Below, one piece after another: positions 1 through 61,576 of a DNA stretch of 64,000 nt. The notes under the pieces were generated by a model. The model had not been told where the DNA came from. It did not search any database and worked only from the letters and a program-made list of their open reading frames with translations. Origin of the DNA: an uncultured Clostridia bacterium (GTDB taxonomy: Bacteria > Bacillota > Clostridia > TANB77 > CAG-508); assembly GCA_947623595.1 (NCBI GenBank), contig CANQHC010000001.1, forward strand, positions 65,299 through 129,298, read 5' to 3'. A program made the position numbers and the translations under genes. Every line of letters starts with the position of its first letter. The stretch's first letter is position 1.

Positions 1-1
1 A

Positions 2-394
2 TATCAAGGATTACCAGCAGTAGGAAGAATAGAGATACCAAAAAATGGCATTAATATTCCTATATTAAGTAATGTATCTGTAAAAGGGATGGAAATAGCA
101 TCATGCTTATTATATTCAACAGGAAACTTAAATCAAAAGGGCAACAACTTAATTGTAGCACATAATTATAAAAATTTATTTCGTGATAATAAGAAATTAA
201 ATGTGGGTGACAAAATATATGTAACATCCTTAGATGGAAAAAGAGTAGAATATACTGTTTATGATAAATTTACAACAACACCAGAAAGATTTGACTATGT
301 TGCTAGAAAAACGAGTAGCCCAGAAATAACTTTATCAACATGTACAAATAATGATGATTATAGACTTGTTATTTTAGCAAAGGCTAATAATTAG
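2..394 (+). CDS. Sortase, 5'-truncated by the window edge
   Basis: C-terminal part of a sortase, a membrane-anchored transpeptidase that links LPXTG proteins to the cell wall. The open frame runs from the first bases of the window. It shows VGRIEIPKNGINIPIL near the start of the catalytic beta-barrel, the catalytic histidine in VAHNYKN, the cysteine in LSTCTN and a downstream arginine (DDYRLVILAK). This order His-Cys-Arg and the barrel length fit a class D/E-like sortase. A second sortase lies at 16237-16971 and an LPXTG substrate at 15735-16139. The N-terminal membrane segment is outside the window. The internal ATG at 89 is not the true start, because conserved residues precede it. Confidence 0.85.
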   Translation, partial: YQGLPAVGRIEIPKNGINIPILSNVSVKGMEIASCLLYSTGNLNQKGNNLIVAHNYKNLFRDNKKLNVGDKIYVTSLDGKRVEYTVYDKFTTTPERFDYVARKTSSPEITLSTCTNNDDYRLVILAKANN

Positions 395-21653: not shown

Positions 21654-24600
21654 ATGGAAGAAACAAATTTAAAAACTGTTAAACAAGTATTTAAAGATTA
21701 TAATTCTAATAGCTTTGCTTTAAGTGAAGCTAAAGTACTATGTGTTAATATTTATAAAAAAACAAATGAATTAGAGATAAAATTAAAGGTAACTTCTACT
21801 ATTCTAATTAAAGATTTAACTGATTTTGAAAAATATTTAGTAGCAAGGTTTAATTTTAAAGAAATTAAAATAAAAATACAAACTGACAATATAGAAAATG
21901 ATGCAGATAAAAAGATTGAAGCAGAGTGGGGAGATATAACAGAATATATGGCATATAAGCACCCATTAACAAAAGCTTTATTAAAAAATAGTACCATTGA
22001 AATTAAAGATAATAAATTAGTTGTTAAAATGGCGAGAAGAGGAAAAGAAATTTTAGAAGCTAGAAGTTTTGAAAAGATATTAGCTTCTAAATTACAGGAT
22101 TTATACCATAAAAACTATGTAGTCACATATCAAGAAGAAATTACTCAAGAAATGATACTACAGTATCAAGAATATGCAAAAGAACTAGAAAAACAAGCAA
22201 TTTTGTTAGCAGAAAAAGAAGCCAAAGAAGCAATTGCTGAAAAGAAAGAAGTAAAAAATGAACAAAGCAATAATCCAACTTCAAATGCTAGTGAACCTAT
22301 ACCAGAAGTACCAAAAGAAGTGCAGGAAGAAAATTCACCACTTATTTATGGCAGAAGTTTAAAGATAAAGGAAGAACTATCAAAAATAGTAGATCTTACA
22401 ATAGATAGTGGTAGAATCTTATTAGATGGAGAGATTTTAAATACAGATTCTAGAGAGCTAAAATCAGGAAAATTTTTAGTTACATTTGATTTATATGATG
22501 GTTCTAGTACAATTACTTGCAAAGCTTTTGTTGAAGCAGAAAAGCATGATGCAGTTATAAAAAGGTTAAAGGGTGCAAAAGGTGTAAAAGTAAATGGAAC
22601 TGCACAATTTGATCCATTTGCAAAAGAATTGGGAGTAATAGCGAATGTTATTATTGAGTCTACAGGAATTAAGAGAGAAGTAAGAAAAGATGAGGCAAAG
22701 CAAAAAAGAGTTGAACTTCATATGCATACTCAAATGAGCCAAATGGACGGAATGACAGCTGCAAAAGATTTATTGAAACGTGCTGTTAAATGGGGAATGA
22801 AGTCTATTGCTATTACAGACCATGGTGTTGTACAAGCTTTTCCAGATGCGCATAAATATTTAGAAAAAGATCATCCAGACTTAAAAGTAATTTATGGGGT
22901 TGAAGCATATTTAGCACCTGATAAGACCTCATGTGTCTCTTTTTCTAGGGGACAAAATATAGAAGATTCAACATATTGTGTTTTAGATTTAGAAACAACA
23001 GGACTTTCTTTTAGAACTGAAAAAATTACAGAAATAGGAATTATGAAAGTAAAAAATCATGAAGTAATTGATCAATTTAGTACTTTTGTAAATCCTGAAA
23101 AACCAATACCACAAAAAGTTGTAGAAGTTACAAATATTACAGATGATATGGTAAAAGAAGCACCAACAATTGATGAAGTTTTACCAAAAGTATTGGAATT
23201 TGTAGGAGACAGTGTATTAGTAGCCCATAATGCTGATTTTGACATAGGATTTTTAAAACATAATTGTTCAGAATTAGGATTAAAACTTGGAAATACATAT
23301 TTAGACACATTACGTTTAGCAAAAGAATTGTTCCCAGAATATAAAAAGTATAAATTAGGTTTAATTGCTGAAAATTTAGGAATTAAAGTAGAAGTGGCAC
23401 ATAGAGCATTGGATGATGTTGATACCACTGTAAAGGTATTTAATGTAATGCTTGATATGTTGAAAGAAAAAGGAATAACTACACTTGATGAAATGGATAT
23501 TAAACTAAGTGGAAAGGCAGATTATAAATCTTTACAAACTTATCATGCTATTATTCTTGCTAAAGATTATGTAGGATTAAGAAATTTATATAAATTAATT
23601 TCAATTTCACACTTAGATTATTTTTATAAAAAACCTCGTATATTAAAATCTATTTATAAAAAATATTCAGAAGGATTAATATTAGGTAGTGCCTGTGAAG
23701 CAGGAGAATTATATAGAGCAATTATTGCAGGAAAAACAGATGAAGAGCTAGAAGAAATAGCAGCTGATTATGATTACTTAGAAGTTCAACCAATCGGAAA
23801 TAATATGTTCATGGTAAGAAATGAAACAGTAAAAAGTGTAGAAGACTTACAAGATATAAATCGTAAAATAGTAGCTTTGGGAGATAAATTACAAAAACCA
23901 GTAGTTGCAACTTGTGATGTTCATTTTATGGATCCACAAGATGAAGTATATCGTAGAATTCTAATGGCTGGGCAGGGATATGATGATGCTGATGAACAAG
24001 CACCACTATATTTAAGAACAACAGAAGAAATGTTAAAAGAGTTTGAATATTTAGGAGAAGAAAAGGCTTATGAAATTGTTGTAACTAATACCAACAAAAT
24101 TGCAGACATGTGTGAAAAAATAAGTCCAATTTCGCCAGAAAAATGTCCACCATATATCGAAGGATGCGAGGAAACAATAAAAACAATTGCATATAATAAG
24201 GCACATGAATTATATGGTGATCCATTACCTGAATTAGTGCAAACTAGATTGGATAAAGAGTTAAATTCAATTATAAAAAATGGATTCTCAGTTATGTATA
24301 TTATTGCACAGAAATTGGTGTGGAAATCTAATGAAGATGGATATATTGTTGGTTCAAGAGGTTCTGTTGGTTCATCATTTGTAGCTAATATGACAGGTAT
24401 TACAGAAGTTAATTCACTTCCACCACATTATAGATGCTCTAATTGCAAATATTCTGATTTTACAGATTATGGATATAAGAACGGGTTTGATCTTCCAGAT
24501 AAAAAATGTCCTAAATGTGGTCATCCACTTTCAAAAGATGGAATGGATATTCCTTTTGAAACATTCTTAGGTTTTGATGGAGATAAAGAGCCTGATATTG

Positions 24601-26033
24601 ACTTAAACTTTTCAGGAGAATATCAAGCTAAAGCACATAGATATACAGAAGTTATTTTTGGAAAAGGTACTACATTTAAAGCCGGAACTGTAGGTACTGT
24701 AGCAGACAAAACAGCTTTTGGATATGTAAAAAAATATTATGAAGAACGTGGAATACCTGTTAGTAATGCAGAAATTTTAAGACTTTCTCAAGGATGTACT
24801 GGAATAAAAAGAACAACTGGACAACACCCAGGTGGAATTATAGTTGTGCCAAAAGGAAGAGAAATTTATGAATTTACACCAGTACAACATCCAGCAGATG
24901 ATCCTAATTCTGATATTATTACAACACATTTTGATTACCACTCAATCGATCAAAACTTACTTAAGTTAGATATTTTAGGACATGATGATCCTACAATGAT
25001 TCGTATGCTTTTCGATTTGACAGGACAGGATCCAACAAAAGTTCCTTTAGACGATAAAGATACAATGTCAATTTTTAGTTCAACTGATATTTTAGGAGTA
25101 ACACCTGAGCAAATACATTCAGAAGTAGGTACTTATGGAGTACCTGAATTCGGAACTAAATTTGTAAGAGGCATGTTAATAGATACAAAACCAACTACTT
25201 TTGAGGAATTACTTCGTATATCCGGGTTATCACATGGTACTGATGTATGGCTTAATAATGCACAATCACTAATTGAGGAAGGAACTATTACTCTTCAAGA
25301 TGCTATATGTACTCGTGATGATATTATGCTTTATTTAATAAAACAAGGATTACCTCCAAAGCCAGCATTTAAAATAATGGAATTTGTACGTAAAGGAAAG
25401 CCTTCTAAAGATCCTGAAAAATGGAAAGAATTTGAAGCAACTATGAGAGAATATAATATTCCAGAATGGTATATTGGATCATGTAAAAAGATTAAATACA
25501 TGTTCCCAAAGGCTCATGCTGCAGCATATGTAACAAATGCTTTTCGTATTGCATGGTTTAAAGTTCATAAACCAGCAGCATATTACACAGCATTTTTTAC
25601 AATACGTGCAGATGAATTCGACAGTGATATTATGTGCCATGGAGTAGAAAAAGTAAAAAATAAAATGAAAGAAATAGATTTACAAGGCAATAGTGCTACA
25701 ACTAAAGATAAAAATATGTATGCAATACTAGAGCTTGTACTAGAAATGTATGAAAGAGGAATTACATTTTTACCTATAGATCTATATGAAAGCCATGCTA
25801 CTAAATTTAAAATGGAATCAGATACAGAGATAAGGCCACCTTTAAATAGTATCCCAGGCTTAGGAACAGTAGCAGCTGAGGGGATAGATGAGGCAAAGAA
25901 AGATGGTAAATTCATGTCAATAGATGATATGAAGATTCGTGCTAAAATAGGAAAATCTGTAATTGAGTTATTAGAGAAAGTAGGTTGTTTGAAAGGAATG
26001 AGCCAAAGTAATCAGATGAGCTTATTTGGTTAG
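21654..26033 (+). CDS. polC: DNA polymerase III subunit alpha, Gram-positive type (PolC)
   Basis: Replicative polymerase with built-in proofreading; it marks the host as a low-GC Gram-positive. 1459 aa. Order: N-terminal domain, OB fold (~240-330), PHP domain beginning VELHMHTQMSQMDG (~350), an inserted DnaQ-like exonuclease with DLETTGL (~444) and VAHNADFD, the rest of PHP, a four-Cys zinc site (CSNCKYS; KKCPKCGHP), the catalytic palm with PDIDLNFSGEY, and C-terminal helix-hairpin-helix. SD AAAGGAG is 5 nt before the ATG. It ends the pyrH run. Confidence 0.98.
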   Translation: MEETNLKTVKQVFKDYNSNSFALSEAKVLCVNIYKKTNELEIKLKVTSTILIKDLTDFEKYLVARFNFKEIKIKIQTDNIENDADKKIEAEWGDITEYMAYKHPLTKALLKNSTIEIKDNKLVVKMARRGKEILEARSFEKILASKLQDLYHKNYVVTYQEEITQEMILQYQEYAKELEKQAILLAEKEAKEAIAEKKEVKNEQSNNPTSNASEPIPEVPKEVQEENSPLIYGRSLKIKEELSKIVDLTIDSGRILLDGEILNTDSRELKSGKFLVTFDLYDGSSTITCKAFVEAEKHDAVIKRLKGAKGVKVNGTAQFDPFAKELGVIANVIIESTGIKREVRKDEAKQKRVELHMHTQMSQMDGMTAAKDLLKRAVKWGMKSIAITDHGVVQAFPDAHKYLEKDHPDLKVIYGVEAYLAPDKTSCVSFSRGQNIEDSTYCVLDLETTGLSFRTEKITEIGIMKVKNHEVIDQFSTFVNPEKPIPQKVVEVTNITDDMVKEAPTIDEVLPKVLEFVGDSVLVAHNADFDIGFLKHNCSELGLKLGNTYLDTLRLAKELFPEYKKYKLGLIAENLGIKVEVAHRALDDVDTTVKVFNVMLDMLKEKGITTLDEMDIKLSGKADYKSLQTYHAIILAKDYVGLRNLYKLISISHLDYFYKKPRILKSIYKKYSEGLILGSACEAGELYRAIIAGKTDEELEEIAADYDYLEVQPIGNNMFMVRNETVKSVEDLQDINRKIVALGDKLQKPVVATCDVHFMDPQDEVYRRILMAGQGYDDADEQAPLYLRTTEEMLKEFEYLGEEKAYEIVVTNTNKIADMCEKISPISPEKCPPYIEGCEETIKTIAYNKAHELYGDPLPELVQTRLDKELNSIIKNGFSVMYIIAQKLVWKSNEDGYIVGSRGSVGSSFVANMTGITEVNSLPPHYRCSNCKYSDFTDYGYKNGFDLPDKKCPKCGHPLSKDGMDIPFETFLGFDGDKEPDIDLNFSGEYQAKAHRYTEVIFGKGTTFKAGTVGTVADKTAFGYVKKYYEERGIPVSNAEILRLSQGCTGIKRTTGQHPGGIIVVPKGREIYEFTPVQHPADDPNSDIITTHFDYHSIDQNLLKLDILGHDDPTMIRMLFDLTGQDPTKVPLDDKDTMSIFSSTDILGVTPEQIHSEVGTYGVPEFGTKFVRGMLIDTKPTTFEELLRISGLSHGTDVWLNNAQSLIEEGTITLQDAICTRDDIMLYLIKQGLPPKPAFKIMEFVRKGKPSKDPEKWKEFEATMREYNIPEWYIGSCKKIKYMFPKAHAAAYVTNAFRIAWFKVHKPAAYYTAFFTIRADEFDSDIMCHGVEKVKNKMKEIDLQGNSATTKDKNMYAILELVLEMYERGITFLPIDLYESHATKFKMESDTEIRPPLNSIPGLGTVAAEGIDEAKKDGKFMSIDDMKIRAKIGKSVIELLEKVGCLKGMSQSNQMSLFG

Positions 26034-26137: not shown

Positions 26138-28648
26138 ATGAAAGAAGACATAAGTTCAAAGCTTACAGAAGATATAGCAGTTACGAAAAACGATGTCACA
26201 AAAACTACAAAAGATGATAAAAATAATGCAATAAAGCAAACTCCTGAAAAAGTAAAGAGGCATAGAAATAGTGCCGAGCAAAAAGCAAAATTTATAGAAA
26301 AAGCTAGACAAATTCCTGATGATTTAGAAACTTTGCAAAAAGAATTTGGCTATTCTTCAACTTTAACTGTTTATCAAGCTCTTAGTAATGCTGGAATATA
26401 TACGGGTTCTAAAATAGAGAAGTTATTGAATAAAAAGACAGATGAGCAAATAGCCAAAGAAGGCAATGTAACTGTTGAAGCAGTTGCTAGAATAAGAGAA
26501 AAAAATAATAAAAAACAATCATCAATTAATAGACGAAAAATAATTGAAATGGCAAAAAATGGAGTTAGAGTTGTAGAAATAAAGAAAGCACTTAATTATG
26601 GAACTTCTAACGAAATATATAATATTCTAAAATCAGAAGGAATTTTTACAAGAAGGGAGATTATAGCTCTTTTACCTCAAAGAACAGATGAAGAGATTGC
26701 AGAAATGGGAAAAGTAACAGTTGAAGCTGTTGCTAGAATAAGAAAAGAAAAAATAGGAAATGTACAAGATTTTAAATCAAGAGCTGCACAAATTCCAGAT
26801 GATTTAGATACTCTTGCAAAGGAATTTGGATATAGTAGGTTTTCAATTTACAGTGTATTAAGAAGATATAAAATTTATAATAAGTCACAAATAATTGAAG
26901 CTATTCAAAAAAGAAGAATTGAAAATCCGGATGAAGCTGATATTGAAATAGCAAAAGAAGGAAATATAGAAGTTGAAACAGTTAAAAGAATAAGAGAAGA
27001 ATATGAAGAAGCAGGGCAAAAAAATCAAACAAGAATAGAAACTAATAAAGTAAACGCTAAAATAGAAAAAGAAAGAAAAAGAGCTAAACTAAGAGATGAA
27101 CAAGAAGCTAGGTTAGAAAGGGCAAAAAAAGAAAGAGAGAAAAAAGTTCAGCAGTTAAGAGAAAGAGAAGAATTAGTTATACAATTGGGAAAAAATTTAA
27201 TATTACCTTCATCAATATCAATGAGTGTAGGATATTCTATTGAAAAAGTTTATAGAATATTAAAAGAAAATGGAATATATGGTAGAGCAAAAGTTATAAA
27301 TTTATTAGAAAGTAAAACAAATCAAGAAATAGCTGAAGAAGGGAACCTAAATATTAAGGCTGTAGAGCAAGTAAGGCAAGAAGAAGCAGATAAAGTTTTA
27401 ATGAGAAAAATGTCAAAACAAAAAGAACATACAAAAACAAAACAAACAACTTATGTAAAAAGAGAAAAGGTAACATCAGAACAACAAGATGATACATATG
27501 GTCAGTTAGATAAAGAATCTACTCAAAGTGTTCAAAGTACTGAACAAGAAAAGGTAGCAACTAAAAAAATAGACTTTCAAAGCAGAAAGAAAATGATGGA
27601 AGACAAAGAAAACTTAATTTTTAGAGGAATAAAAAATATCGAAGATCCAAGGAAAATAGCAAGAGAAACACAAACAAGTGTGAAATATGTTTATGAAGTA
27701 TTAAAAAAATATCATTTTTATAGTAGGGAACAAGTAGTTAGTTTTTTATCTAGCTTGACTGACGAGCAAATTGCCCAAAGGGGTTCTGTAAATGTAGAAG
27801 CTGTGGGAAGAGTAAGAAAACAAGAAGAAGAAAAAATAAGAAGAAAAAACAGTTCTGAAATGCAAGAGGAAACTTTAAAAAAACAAAGGCTTAATGAAAG
27901 ATTGAAGATTGATGAGAATGTACTATTTTTTAAGCTAGCTAGAGGCTTTGAGCCGATTGAAAAGATATCGTCAATAATGGAATTAAATCCATATGAAATA
28001 AGATTTTTGTTAAAAAGATTGAAAATTTATACAAGAGAGGATCTAGAAAGATTAATAGAAACTTCTCCAAAATTGACTAATCAGCAAATTGCTGAAATTG
28101 CAAATGGAGAAATAAGTGCTGTAGAAAAGATAAGAAATCAAATTAATATAAGAAATGGAATTATAAAAAAAGTTCCTAATAATATTAGAAAAAACATTGA
28201 AATTATGCTCGATAGTTCAAAAACTGTTGAATATATTTCATACAAAACTAAGCGTCCTACATCTGAAATTAAAGCAATACGAGACAAAAGAATTAGAGAT
28301 AAGCAAAGAAATATAACAGAAGAAAGGAAAAAAGTAAATTTAAAGATAGAAATAAATGAATTAAGAAATCTTTTAAAAAATGTAGAATATGCTAGTAAAA
28401 ATTCTCAAGATGTGCTCTTTTTAAAAATTAACAAAATTTTAACACAATATGATACTATTTTATCTCAAACAGAATATGCATTTTTAGCATATAGTTGTAT
28501 GAAAATTGGAAAGTATTTACAAGCTATTCATATTGGTGAAATGTTTTTAAATTTAAGAGATACATCCATTGAAGGGATAATAGGAAGAATAGAAGAAATT
28601 CAAAATTCAAATGAAAAGAAAAAAGAGATGTGCGGTACAACAAGATAA
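26138..28648 (+). CDS. Large charged protein with six HTH-like repeats
   Basis: 836 aa, no signal or membrane span, rich in Lys, Glu and Arg. A ~25-residue module recurs six times: T[DN]xxIAxxGx[VI]x[VI]EAVxRIR, at about residues 101, 183, 269, 393, 552 and 652 (examples DEQIAKEGNVTVEAVARIR and DEEIAEMGKVTVEAVARIR). Before each copy is a second helical unit resembling another helix-turn-helix (FGYSSTLTVYQALSNAGIY type), so each repeat looks like paired HTHs. The region ~300-350 is a coiled coil. Multiple DNA- or RNA-binding units seem likely, but no characterised family was recognised. It follows polC and precedes a DUF1294 gene. Confidence 0.7.
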   Translation: MKEDISSKLTEDIAVTKNDVTKTTKDDKNNAIKQTPEKVKRHRNSAEQKAKFIEKARQIPDDLETLQKEFGYSSTLTVYQALSNAGIYTGSKIEKLLNKKTDEQIAKEGNVTVEAVARIREKNNKKQSSINRRKIIEMAKNGVRVVEIKKALNYGTSNEIYNILKSEGIFTRREIIALLPQRTDEEIAEMGKVTVEAVARIRKEKIGNVQDFKSRAAQIPDDLDTLAKEFGYSRFSIYSVLRRYKIYNKSQIIEAIQKRRIENPDEADIEIAKEGNIEVETVKRIREEYEEAGQKNQTRIETNKVNAKIEKERKRAKLRDEQEARLERAKKEREKKVQQLREREELVIQLGKNLILPSSISMSVGYSIEKVYRILKENGIYGRAKVINLLESKTNQEIAEEGNLNIKAVEQVRQEEADKVLMRKMSKQKEHTKTKQTTYVKREKVTSEQQDDTYGQLDKESTQSVQSTEQEKVATKKIDFQSRKKMMEDKENLIFRGIKNIEDPRKIARETQTSVKYVYEVLKKYHFYSREQVVSFLSSLTDEQIAQRGSVNVEAVGRVRKQEEEKIRRKNSSEMQEETLKKQRLNERLKIDENVLFFKLARGFEPIEKISSIMELNPYEIRFLLKRLKIYTREDLERLIETSPKLTNQQIAEIANGEISAVEKIRNQINIRNGIIKKVPNNIRKNIEIMLDSSKTVEYISYKTKRPTSEIKAIRDKRIRDKQRNITEERKKVNLKIEINELRNLLKNVEYASKNSQDVLFLKINKILTQYDTILSQTEYAFLAYSCMKIGKYLQAIHIGEMFLNLRDTSIEGIIGRIEEIQNSNEKKKEMCGTTR

Positions 28649-28671: not shown

Positions 28672-28956
28672 ATGAATATAGAGGAAGTATTTAATATACA
28701 AAATATTTTAATTTATGTAATTTGTATTAACCTATTAACATTTTTTGTTATGTGGTTAGATAAAAGGAAAGCTAAAAAAGGAAAGTGGAGAATACCTGAA
28801 AATACATTATTACTCTTAGTTGTTCTAGGAGGAGGGATAGGTGGTATTGCTGGAATGTATGTATTTAGGCATAAAACACAAAAAATGAGGTTTGTAATAG
28901 GTTTTCCTTTAATATTAATTTGTGAAATTTTATTAATTTTATTATTCGTTCTTTAA
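28672..28956 (+). CDS. DUF1294 small membrane protein
   Basis: 94 aa with three hydrophobic spans. The pattern KWRIPENTLLLLVVLGGG, GGIAGMYVFRHKTQK and a following GFP matches DUF1294, a family of unknown function; in other proteins it is fused to a cold-shock domain, absent here. The start is the ATG at 28672 with AAAAGGA upstream; a longer frame from 28630 overlaps the preceding gene and lacks an SD. Confidence 0.85.
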   Translation: MNIEEVFNIQNILIYVICINLLTFFVMWLDKRKAKKGKWRIPENTLLLLVVLGGGIGGIAGMYVFRHKTQKMRFVIGFPLILICEILLILLFVL

Positions 28957-29035: not shown

Positions 29036-29313
29036 TTATCCACAGAAATTAATCACTATTTTCAGTTATTCACAGAGTTATCCACATTATCCACAATAAT
29101 GTGGATAATATTTTTTGTAAACCTCATGTAATTATTATGTAACATAATCATAGAATTTGTAAAAAATGAGTAATATTTTTGTAATAAAAAGCATATAATA
29201 TTGATGAAAAATATATAAAAATGTAAAAAAAGTAAAATTTTTGAATCTAAAATATGACAAAAATATTACAATTTAAGTATTTTTTGCGCATTAGGAAAAA
29301 AATTTTATCCACA
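29036..29313. promoter_or_regulatory. Cluster of six DnaA boxes
   Basis: TTATCCACA occurs at 29036-29044, 29078-29086, 29087-29095 and 29305-29313, TTATTCACA at 29066-29074, and the reverse complement TGTGGATAA at 29100-29108. Five match the strict consensus TTATCCACA and all match TTATNCACA. The rest of the 538-bp gap (28957-29494) is extremely AT-rich and has no gene. The pair 29087-29095/29100-29108 also forms a hairpin followed by T residues, so it may double as the DUF1294 terminator. Known DnaA-box clusters act in replication control or gene regulation. Confidence 0.8.
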
Positions 29314-29390: not shown

Positions 29391-29419
29391 TTGACAGTTT
29401 ATATCTCAAGTGCTATAAT
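29391..29419 (+). promoter_or_regulatory. Consensus SigA promoter of the L,D-transpeptidase gene
   Basis: TTGACA (29391-29396), 17-nt spacer, TATAAT (29414-29419): a perfect consensus promoter 78 bp downstream of the last DnaA box. Confidence 0.85.
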
Positions 29420-29494: not shown

Positions 29495-30910
29495 ATGAAG
29501 AAGGAGCGGCAGTACACTATGAGTATGAGAAAGAAGGTAACCATTGGAAGTATATTAATACTATTGGGATTAGCAATTCTCTTAGCAGTGTTCTTCTTTC
29601 AAAGGCAACGCTTTAGTTCTCAAACCTACATTTCTGGCATAGATTGTTCATATCTGACTGTAGAGCAAGCAAAAGAAAAAATCGAGAAAAATATGAATGA
29701 AAAAATTAGTTTTGTTTTCCAGACAGCTAGTAATAAAGCAGAATATAGAACTTATGAAGCAAAACCTGAAGAAATAGCAAAATTTGATTTAATCGTTTCG
29801 GATGAAAAAATAATAGAGCAAGCATTGGAACAGCAACACAAAAACAAAGAAGAAAAAGAATTTGAGTCTCCTGAGATGTTTTTGGTTAATGAGAAAGCTG
29901 TAAAAGAATATCTTAGTCCTATTTTAGAAGGTGAGAAAAAAAGTATGATACCTTCTAAAAATGCTTATTTAGAAATAGGAAAAGATTCTCTACTAAAAAT
30001 AGTTCCAGAAACTTATGGCAATGAAGTAGATTTTGAAAAAGCTTATCAATTAGCAATAAAAAGTTTAAAAGAAGGCGATTCAAATATTGACTTTAGTTCT
30101 TTGATAAACAAGCCTACTGTTTTGGCTTCAAATAGTAATCTTATAGAAGCACAAAACGAAGCTAATCGTATTCTTAGTACTAATGTCAAGATTAAATTGA
30201 ATGATGGAAGTATTGTACTTTTGGATGCTCAAACAATAAAAAATTGGATTGAGCCTACAGAAGACGGAGTATCAGTTATCGTTAACGTAGAGAAAAATGT
30301 GCCTTTGTTTGTAGATTCCATTGCTGAAAAGGTAAGTTCAAGTGGAAGTAAACTTGTTTTTTCAGCAACTGGAATAGGAAAAATCACAATGCCTGTAAGG
30401 CAGGCAATAAGACCAAGTTTGAACAAAGAAGAGTCAATAAAAAAGATTCTGGAAGTAATAGGAACTACTCAAGAAGAACCAATTACTTTGACTTACTCTG
30501 GAAATAGTGTTTCCAACATGTTAAGCAGTTATATTGAACTCGATATTACCAGGCAAACCGTTTGGGTATATAAAAACGGAAAATGTATTTTAGAAACACC
30601 ATGTGTTACTGGAAATGTTGTGGCGGGGCACTCTACGCCAACTGGAATTTACTTCTTAAATTATAAAACAACAAATACAGTTTTAAGAGGTAATAATGAC
30701 GATGGATCTAAATATGCGTCTCCAGTAAGCTATTGGATGCCTTTCAACGGCGGAGTTGGTTTCCACGACGCAACATGGAGAGGAAGATTTGGTGGTTCTA
30801 TATACAAAACAAATGGATCTCATGGATGTGTCAACTTACCTTTAGGCGCAGCAAAAACACTTTATCAAAACATAAACAATAGTATGCCAATAATCATTTA
30901 TAAATCCTAG
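29495..30910 (+). CDS. L,D-transpeptidase with peptidoglycan-binding-like repeats
   Basis: 471-aa membrane-anchored enzyme that makes 3-3 cross-links or attaches proteins to peptidoglycan. An N-terminal membrane span (~17-37) is followed by two PG_binding_4/VanW-like regions (starting near YISGIDCSYLTVEQAKEKI) and a C-terminal YkuD domain with the active-site motif SHGCVNLP. The tail of the domain (GGVGFHDATWRGRFGG) is typical. Strong SD and consensus promoter suggest high expression. It lies next to the DnaA-box cluster, so expression might respond to DnaA (inference). Confidence 0.93.
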   Translation: MKKERQYTMSMRKKVTIGSILILLGLAILLAVFFFQRQRFSSQTYISGIDCSYLTVEQAKEKIEKNMNEKISFVFQTASNKAEYRTYEAKPEEIAKFDLIVSDEKIIEQALEQQHKNKEEKEFESPEMFLVNEKAVKEYLSPILEGEKKSMIPSKNAYLEIGKDSLLKIVPETYGNEVDFEKAYQLAIKSLKEGDSNIDFSSLINKPTVLASNSNLIEAQNEANRILSTNVKIKLNDGSIVLLDAQTIKNWIEPTEDGVSVIVNVEKNVPLFVDSIAEKVSSSGSKLVFSATGIGKITMPVRQAIRPSLNKEESIKKILEVIGTTQEEPITLTYSGNSVSNMLSSYIELDITRQTVWVYKNGKCILETPCVTGNVVAGHSTPTGIYFLNYKTTNTVLRGNNDDGSKYASPVSYWMPFNGGVGFHDATWRGRFGGSIYKTNGSHGCVNLPLGAAKTLYQNINNSMPIIIYKS

Positions 30911-55648: not shown

Positions 55649-55692
55649 AATGTATTTTTATATATAATAATGGTTAAAATATTTTTCGTATG

Positions 55693-55730
55693 CTTAGCCT
55701 GTAAAGATTTTACAGGTTAAGTATTTTATT
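55693..55730 (+). terminator. Terminator-like hairpin after the M23 gene
   Basis: CTTAGCCTGTAAA (55693-55705) pairs with TTTACAGGTTAAG (55709-55721), including one G-U, then a short T-rich tract. Confidence 0.65.
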
Positions 55731-56518
55731 AAGATTTTTACAATTAAATTCTTTATATCTAATTGCGCAAAATGAAAGTTTTGTACAATTAGGAATAGGA
55801 GCTAAATACATGGACAACCACTAGCGGTGTCCTACAAATATGCTGATATACCAATACTTTTAGCGCATTAAACTATATGTTTTTTTTATAAAAACCTCTT
55901 AAAATTGATTCTGATACCTTGTTATTTTACTTTATTAAGTTTATTCTAACATAATATTATTTCTATTATAATTTCTAATTAAAATCTTGTAATTCTCTTA
56001 AAACCTTATTTTATCAATTATTTCAGACAAGTAACTATATTACTTTTTTATAAAAACGGATTAAAATCGATTCTCGTGCGTCGTTTTTTGAGCTATTTTT
56101 TGGTAGTTTTTAAAAATTATTGATTTTACAATATTTTGGCAAATTTATATTATATAAGTTATAATTCTTAAATATTCAAGTCAAATAATTTTATTAGTTA
56201 AATATAAAAATGTCTTAAAATTGATTTTGAAGCTTTATAAAATGAAATTATTTTATAATGTTATAAATAGAAATTTATAAAAATTTTAATTATAACAAAT
56301 GTTCGGTTTTTATTAAATTATACAAACAAATTTGAAATCAAAAATTTTAAATTTTTATAAATTCAGATTTTTTATTTTAATAATTATATTTTTTCGTAAA
56401 AAAATTCTAATACTAAAATTTGGGAAATTTTTTAATCTATGATATTTTTTATATTTTAGAAATCTTTGAAAATAAGCTCCTCTCTCCTACTCTAGCAATT
56501 TTCAATTTTTTCTAATTT
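55731..56518. other. Gene-free AT-rich stretch with degenerate repeats
   Basis: About 790 bp with no credible gene on either strand. It holds (a) a segment shared with 61660-61686 (GTTTTGTACAAT then AGGA-x-TAGGA, 55774-55800); (b) a small hairpin GGACAACC/GGTGTCC (55812-55831 region); (c) three related motifs TATAAAAA-x4-TTAAAAT-x-GATT at about 55887, 56049 and 56203, roughly 155-160 bp apart; (d) a 32-bp hairpin (56229-56260) nearly identical to 60344-60375. It looks like decayed mobile or accessory DNA. Confidence 0.55.
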
Positions 56519-56605
56519 TTAATCATCTAAATTCTCGATTTCATTATAAAAATTGATAAAATTCAAGTTTTCTTCTCGCAAATACTTATCTAATTTAATT
56601 ATCAT
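56519..56605 (-). CDS. Possible 28-aa microprotein overlapping the nuclease-like gene end
   Basis: MIIKLDKYLREENLNFINF and a few more residues. Its ATG overlaps the end of the PD-(D/E)XK gene (TATGATAATTAA), which would allow coupled translation. No separate SD; may be chance. Confidence 0.3.
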   Translation of the reverse strand: MIIKLDKYLREENLNFINFYNEIENLDD

Positions 56606-60442: not shown

Positions 60443-61504
60443 TTATACATTTGATAATAAACTTATTAATCTAATATTCTTGTATATTTTCTCTCTTCCA
60501 ATTTTTTCAGATTCTAAGAGTCCGATTTCTTCTAACTGATTTAAGTAGGAAGCTGCCGTTAGTCTTGTAACTCCACAAGATTTTTCAATATAAGAAATTT
60601 TAGTATAAACTTCATAAAACAAACTTTCTAATAGCTCTTTTGAATATATTTTAGGTAGTTTTGCTTTAAATTCTTCTTTATAATCTTTCATTTCCTTTTG
60701 AATATTTTCTATTAACTTAATTGTTTCTTTAGATGTAATTTCAACACCTTTTAAAAAATATATAATCCAATCTTCAAAATTGTTATTGTCTCTAACTTCA
60801 CTAAATAATCTGTAATATTCTTGTTTGGTTTCATTTATATATTTACTTAAGTATAAAATTGGGCTGTTTATTAATTGGTTTAATACAAGATATAGAATAT
60901 TTAGAATTCTACCTGTTCTTCCATTTCCATCATAAAATGGATGTATGCTTTCAAATTGATAATGAATTAAACATACTTTTATTAAAGGATCTATATTATC
61001 TTTGTCATCATTAATGAAATCTTCTAAATTCTTTAAATATGATCTTATTTCTTGTTCATTTTGAGGAGGAGTATAAATAGTTTCTCCAGTAATAGAATTT
61101 TTAAGTTCAGTTCCTGGTAATTTTCTAATTCCTGCATTATTGTGTTCAATAATACCTTGTATTTTAATAATTGTATTTGTATTAATATAACCATCTTTCT
61201 TAATTTGTTCAAATCCACTCCAAATGGCATTTCTATAATCAACAACTTCTTTGGCATTTTCTTCTTTATATCCACTTTCTGTAAGAACTTTATAAATATC
61301 ATCATGAGTTGTAACTATATTTTCGATAGCACTACTATCTTTAGCTTCATTTATAGTCACAGCGTTTATTAAAATATGCATATTGGGGATAGTATTTGCG
61401 TATCCTTTTAATTCTGCTAAAGCTCTTGAAGAAATTGTTAATTGCTCTAAAATTTTTTTTGTTTTTAAATCGATACTTTTATATGGTAACATTTCTAATT
61501 TCAT
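60443..61504 (-). CDS. Fic family protein (AMP-transferase-like) with C-terminal winged helix
   Basis: 353 aa. The Fic core motif HPFYDGNGRTGR is complete (H-x-F-x-D-G-N-G-R-x-x-R). An N-terminal helix has the inhibitory motif SSAIEN ([ST]xxxE[GN]), so this is a self-inhibited Fic. The C-terminal ~60 residues form a winged-helix-like domain (SCGVTRLTAASYLNQLEEIGLL). Likely transfers AMP (or another nucleotide part) to a protein hydroxyl. The start is 61504, with GGAGG 8 nt upstream; the frame to 61555 lacks an SD. Confidence 0.93.
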   Translation of the reverse strand: MKLEMLPYKSIDLKTKKILEQLTISSRALAELKGYANTIPNMHILINAVTINEAKDSSAIENIVTTHDDIYKVLTESGYKEENAKEVVDYRNAIWSGFEQIKKDGYINTNTIIKIQGIIEHNNAGIRKLPGTELKNSITGETIYTPPQNEQEIRSYLKNLEDFINDDKDNIDPLIKVCLIHYQFESIHPFYDGNGRTGRILNILYLVLNQLINSPILYLSKYINETKQEYYRLFSEVRDNNNFEDWIIYFLKGVEITSKETIKLIENIQKEMKDYKEEFKAKLPKIYSKELLESLFYEVYTKISYIEKSCGVTRLTAASYLNQLEEIGLLESEKIGREKIYKNIRLISLLSNV

Positions 61505-61576
61505 TTTTTTATCCTCCATTATATATAAAATATCATAAATTTTATACATTTTCAATAAATATGTATAAAAAATTCA

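Follow-up and report, generated by a model that had tools for sequence, protein, structure and literature searches.

The window examined here (the whole stretch of DNA that was analysed, 64,000 bp) corresponds to positions 65299-129298 of contig C1, in a genome of 1.9 Mb and 85 contigs. Between a DUF1294 gene and a gene encoding an L,D-transpeptidase lies a non-coding region that carries six DnaA boxes (C1:94334-94611, on a contig of 129.8 kb) and an array of direct repeats of the WalR type [Table 1].

Table 1. Features of the DnaA-box element and its neighbours (window coordinates)
Feature	Position	Strand	Remarks
polC (PolC-type DNA polymerase III alpha)	21654..26033	+	upstream neighbour in most relatives
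DUF1294 gene	28672..28956	+	conserved upstream neighbour
DnaA box 1 (TTATCCACA)	29036..29044	+	pattern match; 42 bp upstream of box 3
DnaA box 2 (TTATTCACA), core	29066..29074	+	pattern match; offset -12 in 101/104 distinct loci
DnaA box 3 (TTATCCACA), core	29078..29086	+	pattern match; alignment anchor
DnaA box 4 (TTATCCACA)	29087..29095	+	pattern match; hairpin 5' arm
DnaA box 5, inverted	29100..29108	-	pattern match; hairpin 3' arm
Terminator-like hairpin	29087..29117	+	9-bp stem, 4-nt loop, then TATTTTTTG; made of boxes 4 and 5
WalR-type array, 11-bp phase	29116..29185	+	TGTAAA 29116, TGTAAT 29127, TGTAAC 29138, TGTAAA 29158, AGTAAT 29169, TGTAAT 29180
Two inverted copies of the same half-site, spaced by 11 bp	29255..29270	-	TGACA / TTACA
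DnaA box 6 (TTATCCACA)	29305..29313	+	pattern match; 225-227 bp after box 3; recurs in several genus members
YkuD-gene promoter, consensus TTGACA-N17-TATAAT	29391..29419	+	outside the element
L,D-transpeptidase (YkuD + PG_binding_4)	29495..30910	+	downstream neighbour; pairing with the element not conserved

A preliminary description of this DNA had reported six DnaA boxes at 29036-29313 as beyond chance, and the coordinates were confirmed. Under an order-1 model, 0.020-0.033 matches to TTATNCACA are expected per 278 bp and the probability of at least six lies between 1e-13 and 2e-12; allowing for all 64,000 start points raises it to between 6e-9 and 1e-7, so that fewer than one window in ten million would be expected to hold such a cluster. 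Five of the boxes form a tight core of 73 bp (29036-29108), with box 6 located 197 bp further on. Elsewhere in the window TTATNCACA has only one match (51511), 5 of the 19 occurrences of TTATCCACA in the 1.9-Mb genome fall in the cluster, and a paired-box search of the genome found one such element.

In our collection scan the core came up, with its spacing exact, in at least 114 genome stretches from Clostridia, nearly all of them uncultured (including Candidatus Merdicola, among the matches listed). The preliminary description had named absence of the boxes from close relatives as grounds for rejection; on the contrary, 26-27 of 29 genus relatives carry the element when mismatches are allowed. 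It was not found at that tolerance in G007, G017 or G026; of these three genomes, two are less than 90% complete. The genus arrangement is box C, 30 bp, box T, 12 bp, box C, 9 bp, box C, with divergent spacers, and box 4 occurs among relatives as TTTTCCACA, ATTTCCACA or GTTTCCACA. Relative to box 3, present at offset 0 in all 104 distinct loci, boxes are found at +9 (54 loci) besides that at -12, and also in direct orientation at -42 (22 loci) and inverted at -49/-50 (46 loci) and +21/+22 (27 loci); box 1 takes the direct -42 position in this genus, and other genera have the inverted one at -49/-50 in its place. The counts for boxes 2-4 are not independent because the search pattern itself required them for many loci; the boxes at -42, -49/-50 and +21/+22 were not required. 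Across 20 genus members, identity is 99.6% in the box columns, 71% in the 21-bp spacer and 50% in the flank, figures partly biased by the search pattern. The element is oriented along the leading strand in 102 of the 104 loci, as are most genes. By these sequence comparisons, the DnaA-box cluster is non-coding, old and under selection.

Two further observations concern the wider order. Five genomes of family f4 (G039, G043, G047, G050 and G055) have no TTATNCACA pair within 25 bp anywhere in the genome, unlike the rest of the order, and this family may differ in its use of DnaA boxes. In sister genera (L077, L082, L083, L161, L164, L168, L174) the core is preceded, at a distance of about 100 bp, by a conserved intergenic block close to CCAAACAAACATACTGTACACATAA that this genus lacks.

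The neighbouring genes are conserved on one side only. Directly upstream, polC and/or the DUF1294 gene are present in most of 80 loci. Downstream, the first ORFs of the 104 distinct loci fall into 26 unrelated clusters (names assigned by reading the sequences): a rhodanese-domain protein (33), glyS (9), an unnamed family (9), a HAD-like protein (7), uvrA (4), ykuD (4), hpf (2), then lepA and others. The consensus promoter that had been noted ahead of a wall cross-linking enzyme is indeed present; the accompanying proposal that the cluster serves this L,D-transpeptidase did not hold, and control specific to YkuD was ruled out as the conserved role. As the downstream ORFs are so diverse, neither YkuD nor any other single gene accounts for the element, which is unlikely to serve one particular gene downstream. 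The suggested tie to wall synthesis fails by way of YkuD and appears instead by way of the adjacent WalR-type array, which the preliminary description left unremarked. Between polC and the DUF1294 gene (window 26138-28648) there is also a gene of 836 aa with a repeated HTH-like motif (HTH_28 match); its counterparts at that position share only about 25-37% identity, so the gene is changing very rapidly although those next to it are conserved.

In this genus the array starts some 8 bp beyond the box palindrome. Directly behind the boxes, the genus members have TGTAA at offsets +38, +49, +60, +80, +91 and +102, the spacing between boxes and array being kept genus-wide. In the genus, 76 same-strand TGTAA pairs have a spacing of exactly 11 bp, against 0.22 in shuffles; outside it there are 29, against 0.49, and lags of 10 and 12 give counts at or near background. 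Several relatives also have the inverted half-site pair (TTACAA, twice). Variation was found as well: in G030 the array lies on the opposite strand with seven repeats (L075), phased repeats are scarce or absent in some relatives that have the boxes (e.g., L114, L136 and L144), and family f2 (L084, L085) has kept the boxes and lacks the phased array. The repeats follow the direct-repeat form TGTWAH-N5-TGTWAH of WalR-regulated operators, which is the WalR consensus (PMC4168254) also used for C. difficile (PMC9210968); the motif alone would fit a regulator of the PhoP/PhoB type too, which reads similar 11-bp repeats.

The same 11-bp repeats are found in this genome at the promoters of ftsAZ and mreB, i.e., at genes of division and envelope. 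Among relatives, an 11-bp pair lies upstream of mreB in 20 of 26 regions and upstream of ftsA in 23 of 28. Upstream regions order-wide (L308-L321, L337-L363) contain TGTAAY three times at an 11-bp period, overlapping or flanking the mreB and ftsAZ promoters, and these arrays likely constitute a WalR-type regulon in uncultured Clostridia. In the three genomes of family f2 the arrays are absent at mreB and ftsA. Because f2 lacks them at mreB, ftsA and the DnaA element alike, the pattern suggests, from few genomes, one regulator for all three. The best-matching response regulator of the genome scores 320 bits as YycF/WalR (NCBIfam cut-off 340), with the next match at 240, and the adjoining PAS-HisKA kinase matches WalK best (371 bits; NCBIfam cut-off 725); the two make up a WalR/WalK-like pair, with both scores under the cut-offs and the kinase far under. 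No TGTAAY-N5-TGTAAY site was found at the genome's own dnaA.

Several boxes in one non-coding region outside oriC characterize a non-origin DnaA-box cluster, which as such is a known kind. B. subtilis has six clusters outside oriC, and removal of all of them leads to early initiation (PMC5295017; PMC13220808); at several of these, DnaA is a transcription factor (PMC4447404). The likeness to B. subtilis proposed earlier identifies the nearest known kind, and by analogy a titration or regulatory role is plausible. Like those clusters (Okumura et al., 2012, via PMC5295017), the element has several boxes and is intergenic, non-origin and from Bacillota; unlike them, it is present once in the genome by the paired-box search, keeps exact spacing across genera and has a response-regulator array attached. 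For the B. subtilis clusters, which we compared by description only, we found no report of such an array in the literature. In E. coli, an accessory protein sets DnaA assembly at datA and DARS (PMC5295017), and the present element shares with datA, DARS1 and DARS2 a non-coding nature, a set box order and an accessory-protein site. Theirs is for IHF and Fis, whereas here it is a WalR-type array, and the likeness is one of layout, with no sequence homology claimed. WalKR of S. aureus affects replication, with WalR acting on the dnaA promoter and hup (PMC10746227); an envelope regulator of the WalR type is predicted to bear on replication control here also, through sites that, in contrast to S. 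aureus, adjoin a non-origin DnaA-box cluster. As far as the open-licence papers that were searched show, fixed geometry across families combined with a WalR-type operator array is new.

The explanation we favour, with somewhat less than even confidence, is that the element combines a conserved, non-coding site for DnaA assembly outside the origin with the operator of a WalR-type envelope regulator, and would tune DnaA according to the state of the envelope. DnaA would form an oriented oligomer on boxes 1-3 (plus 4/5), and an active WalR-like regulator bound to the adjacent array would help or block this assembly. This would alter how much DnaA oriC has at its disposal, or in which nucleotide state, by titration or in a role like that of datA/DARS, and initiation would consequently follow envelope growth. 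Possible, and held with distinctly more reserve, is the broader statement that this is a dedicated, neighbour-independent site in several Clostridia families at which a WalR-type regulator exerts direct control over DnaA assembly outside oriC and so couples wall growth to initiation. The element may tie replication initiation to envelope growth in uncultured gut-type Clostridia, and so bears on the general question of how bacteria keep the two in step. Its compactness, with DnaA boxes of fixed geometry beside an array of the wall-stress-regulator type, makes it a defined piece of DNA to test. As a well-conserved case it also joins the few non-origin sites of DnaA control and takes their list beyond E. 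coli and B. subtilis.

Alternatively, DnaA and the regulator may share the intergenic region and act there independently of each other. The cluster would then be a plain titration or timing device with the array working separately (e.g., in transcription) and no coupling, which we consider rather unlikely; the early initiation after joint deletion of the B. subtilis clusters and the boxes without phased array in family f2 speak for it, but the array stands so close to the box palindrome at a spacing kept across the genus, and phased repeats recur beyond the genus too. Also unlikely, and a shade more so, is that DnaA and a WalR-type regulator jointly govern transcription of the downstream operon (here ykuD) or of a small unannotated transcript. 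At mreB and ftsAZ the WalR-type arrays serve as promoter elements, DnaA has transcriptional roles at B. subtilis clusters and a perfect promoter starts at 29391, all of which agree with transcription control; yet the YkuD promoter lies 78 bp past the last box and about 200 bp past the main array, the first downstream ORFs are unrelated among loci, and the stretch yielded neither a conserved ORF nor an RNA family (Rfam gave one tRNA alone in the window).

Boxes 4 and 5 may end the polC-DUF1294 transcript because together they form a stem, a loop and a T-run, so that two of the six boxes may double as a terminator in this genus. The fold has a z-score of -6.4, and paired stem changes occur in relatives (TTATCCACA/TGTGGATAA, TTTTCCACA/TGTGGAAAA and GTTTCCACA/TGTGGAAAC), a covariation that is suggestive and based on few changes with one strongly varying pair. 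That the two boxes are merely an intrinsic terminator inflating the box count would draw on these same features and is nevertheless quite improbable: boxes 1, 2, 3 and 6 are conserved outside the stem, and the T-run is confined to this genus, the inverted box pair occurring without it elsewhere (L129, L133, L138, L166). Farther still from credible is a second or cryptic replication origin, for which the density of the boxes and the adjoining AT-rich stretch might speak. The cluster had been described as far from dnaA and not a bidirectional origin, with locating dnaA/dnaN and the skew switch as the check, and our results bear this out. The dnaA gene lies on a different contig (C22), where GC skew switches from negative to positive (the skew minimum) and the dnaA-dnaN gap carries a DnaA-trio run, TACTATTACTACTACTATTATT, resembling that of C. 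difficile oriC2 (PMC7561715), so the skew puts the origin there. By contrast, no DnaA-trios adjoin the boxes in the reading 29087-29200, and no skew switch occurs at the element in this genome, G032 or G057. Skew around the cluster stays positive over 94 kb in one direction and 27 kb in the opposite one, turning negative at about 56 kb of the window, and gene direction, as also stated earlier, is likewise positive on both sides. Nor did tblastn find dnaA near the element in 80 loci. The origin reading was rejected on the skew, which largely refutes it, and on the trios.

At window positions of about 55650-56600, both GC skew and gene direction go from positive to negative, and this switch is probably the replication terminus. 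Its distance to the element is alike in six genus genomes, where the skew maximum follows the element by about 25-35 kb. That the element generally lies near the terminus does not hold for the more distant genomes G032 and G057, which have no turn nearby (the contig of G057 is 400 kb). A search near the window's skew maximum for a dif-like site of the Firmicutes-type pattern gave nothing above chance. Past the switch, at window 60443-61555, a gene encodes a Fic-domain protein (Fic_N, Fic and a SoFic-like C-terminal domain).
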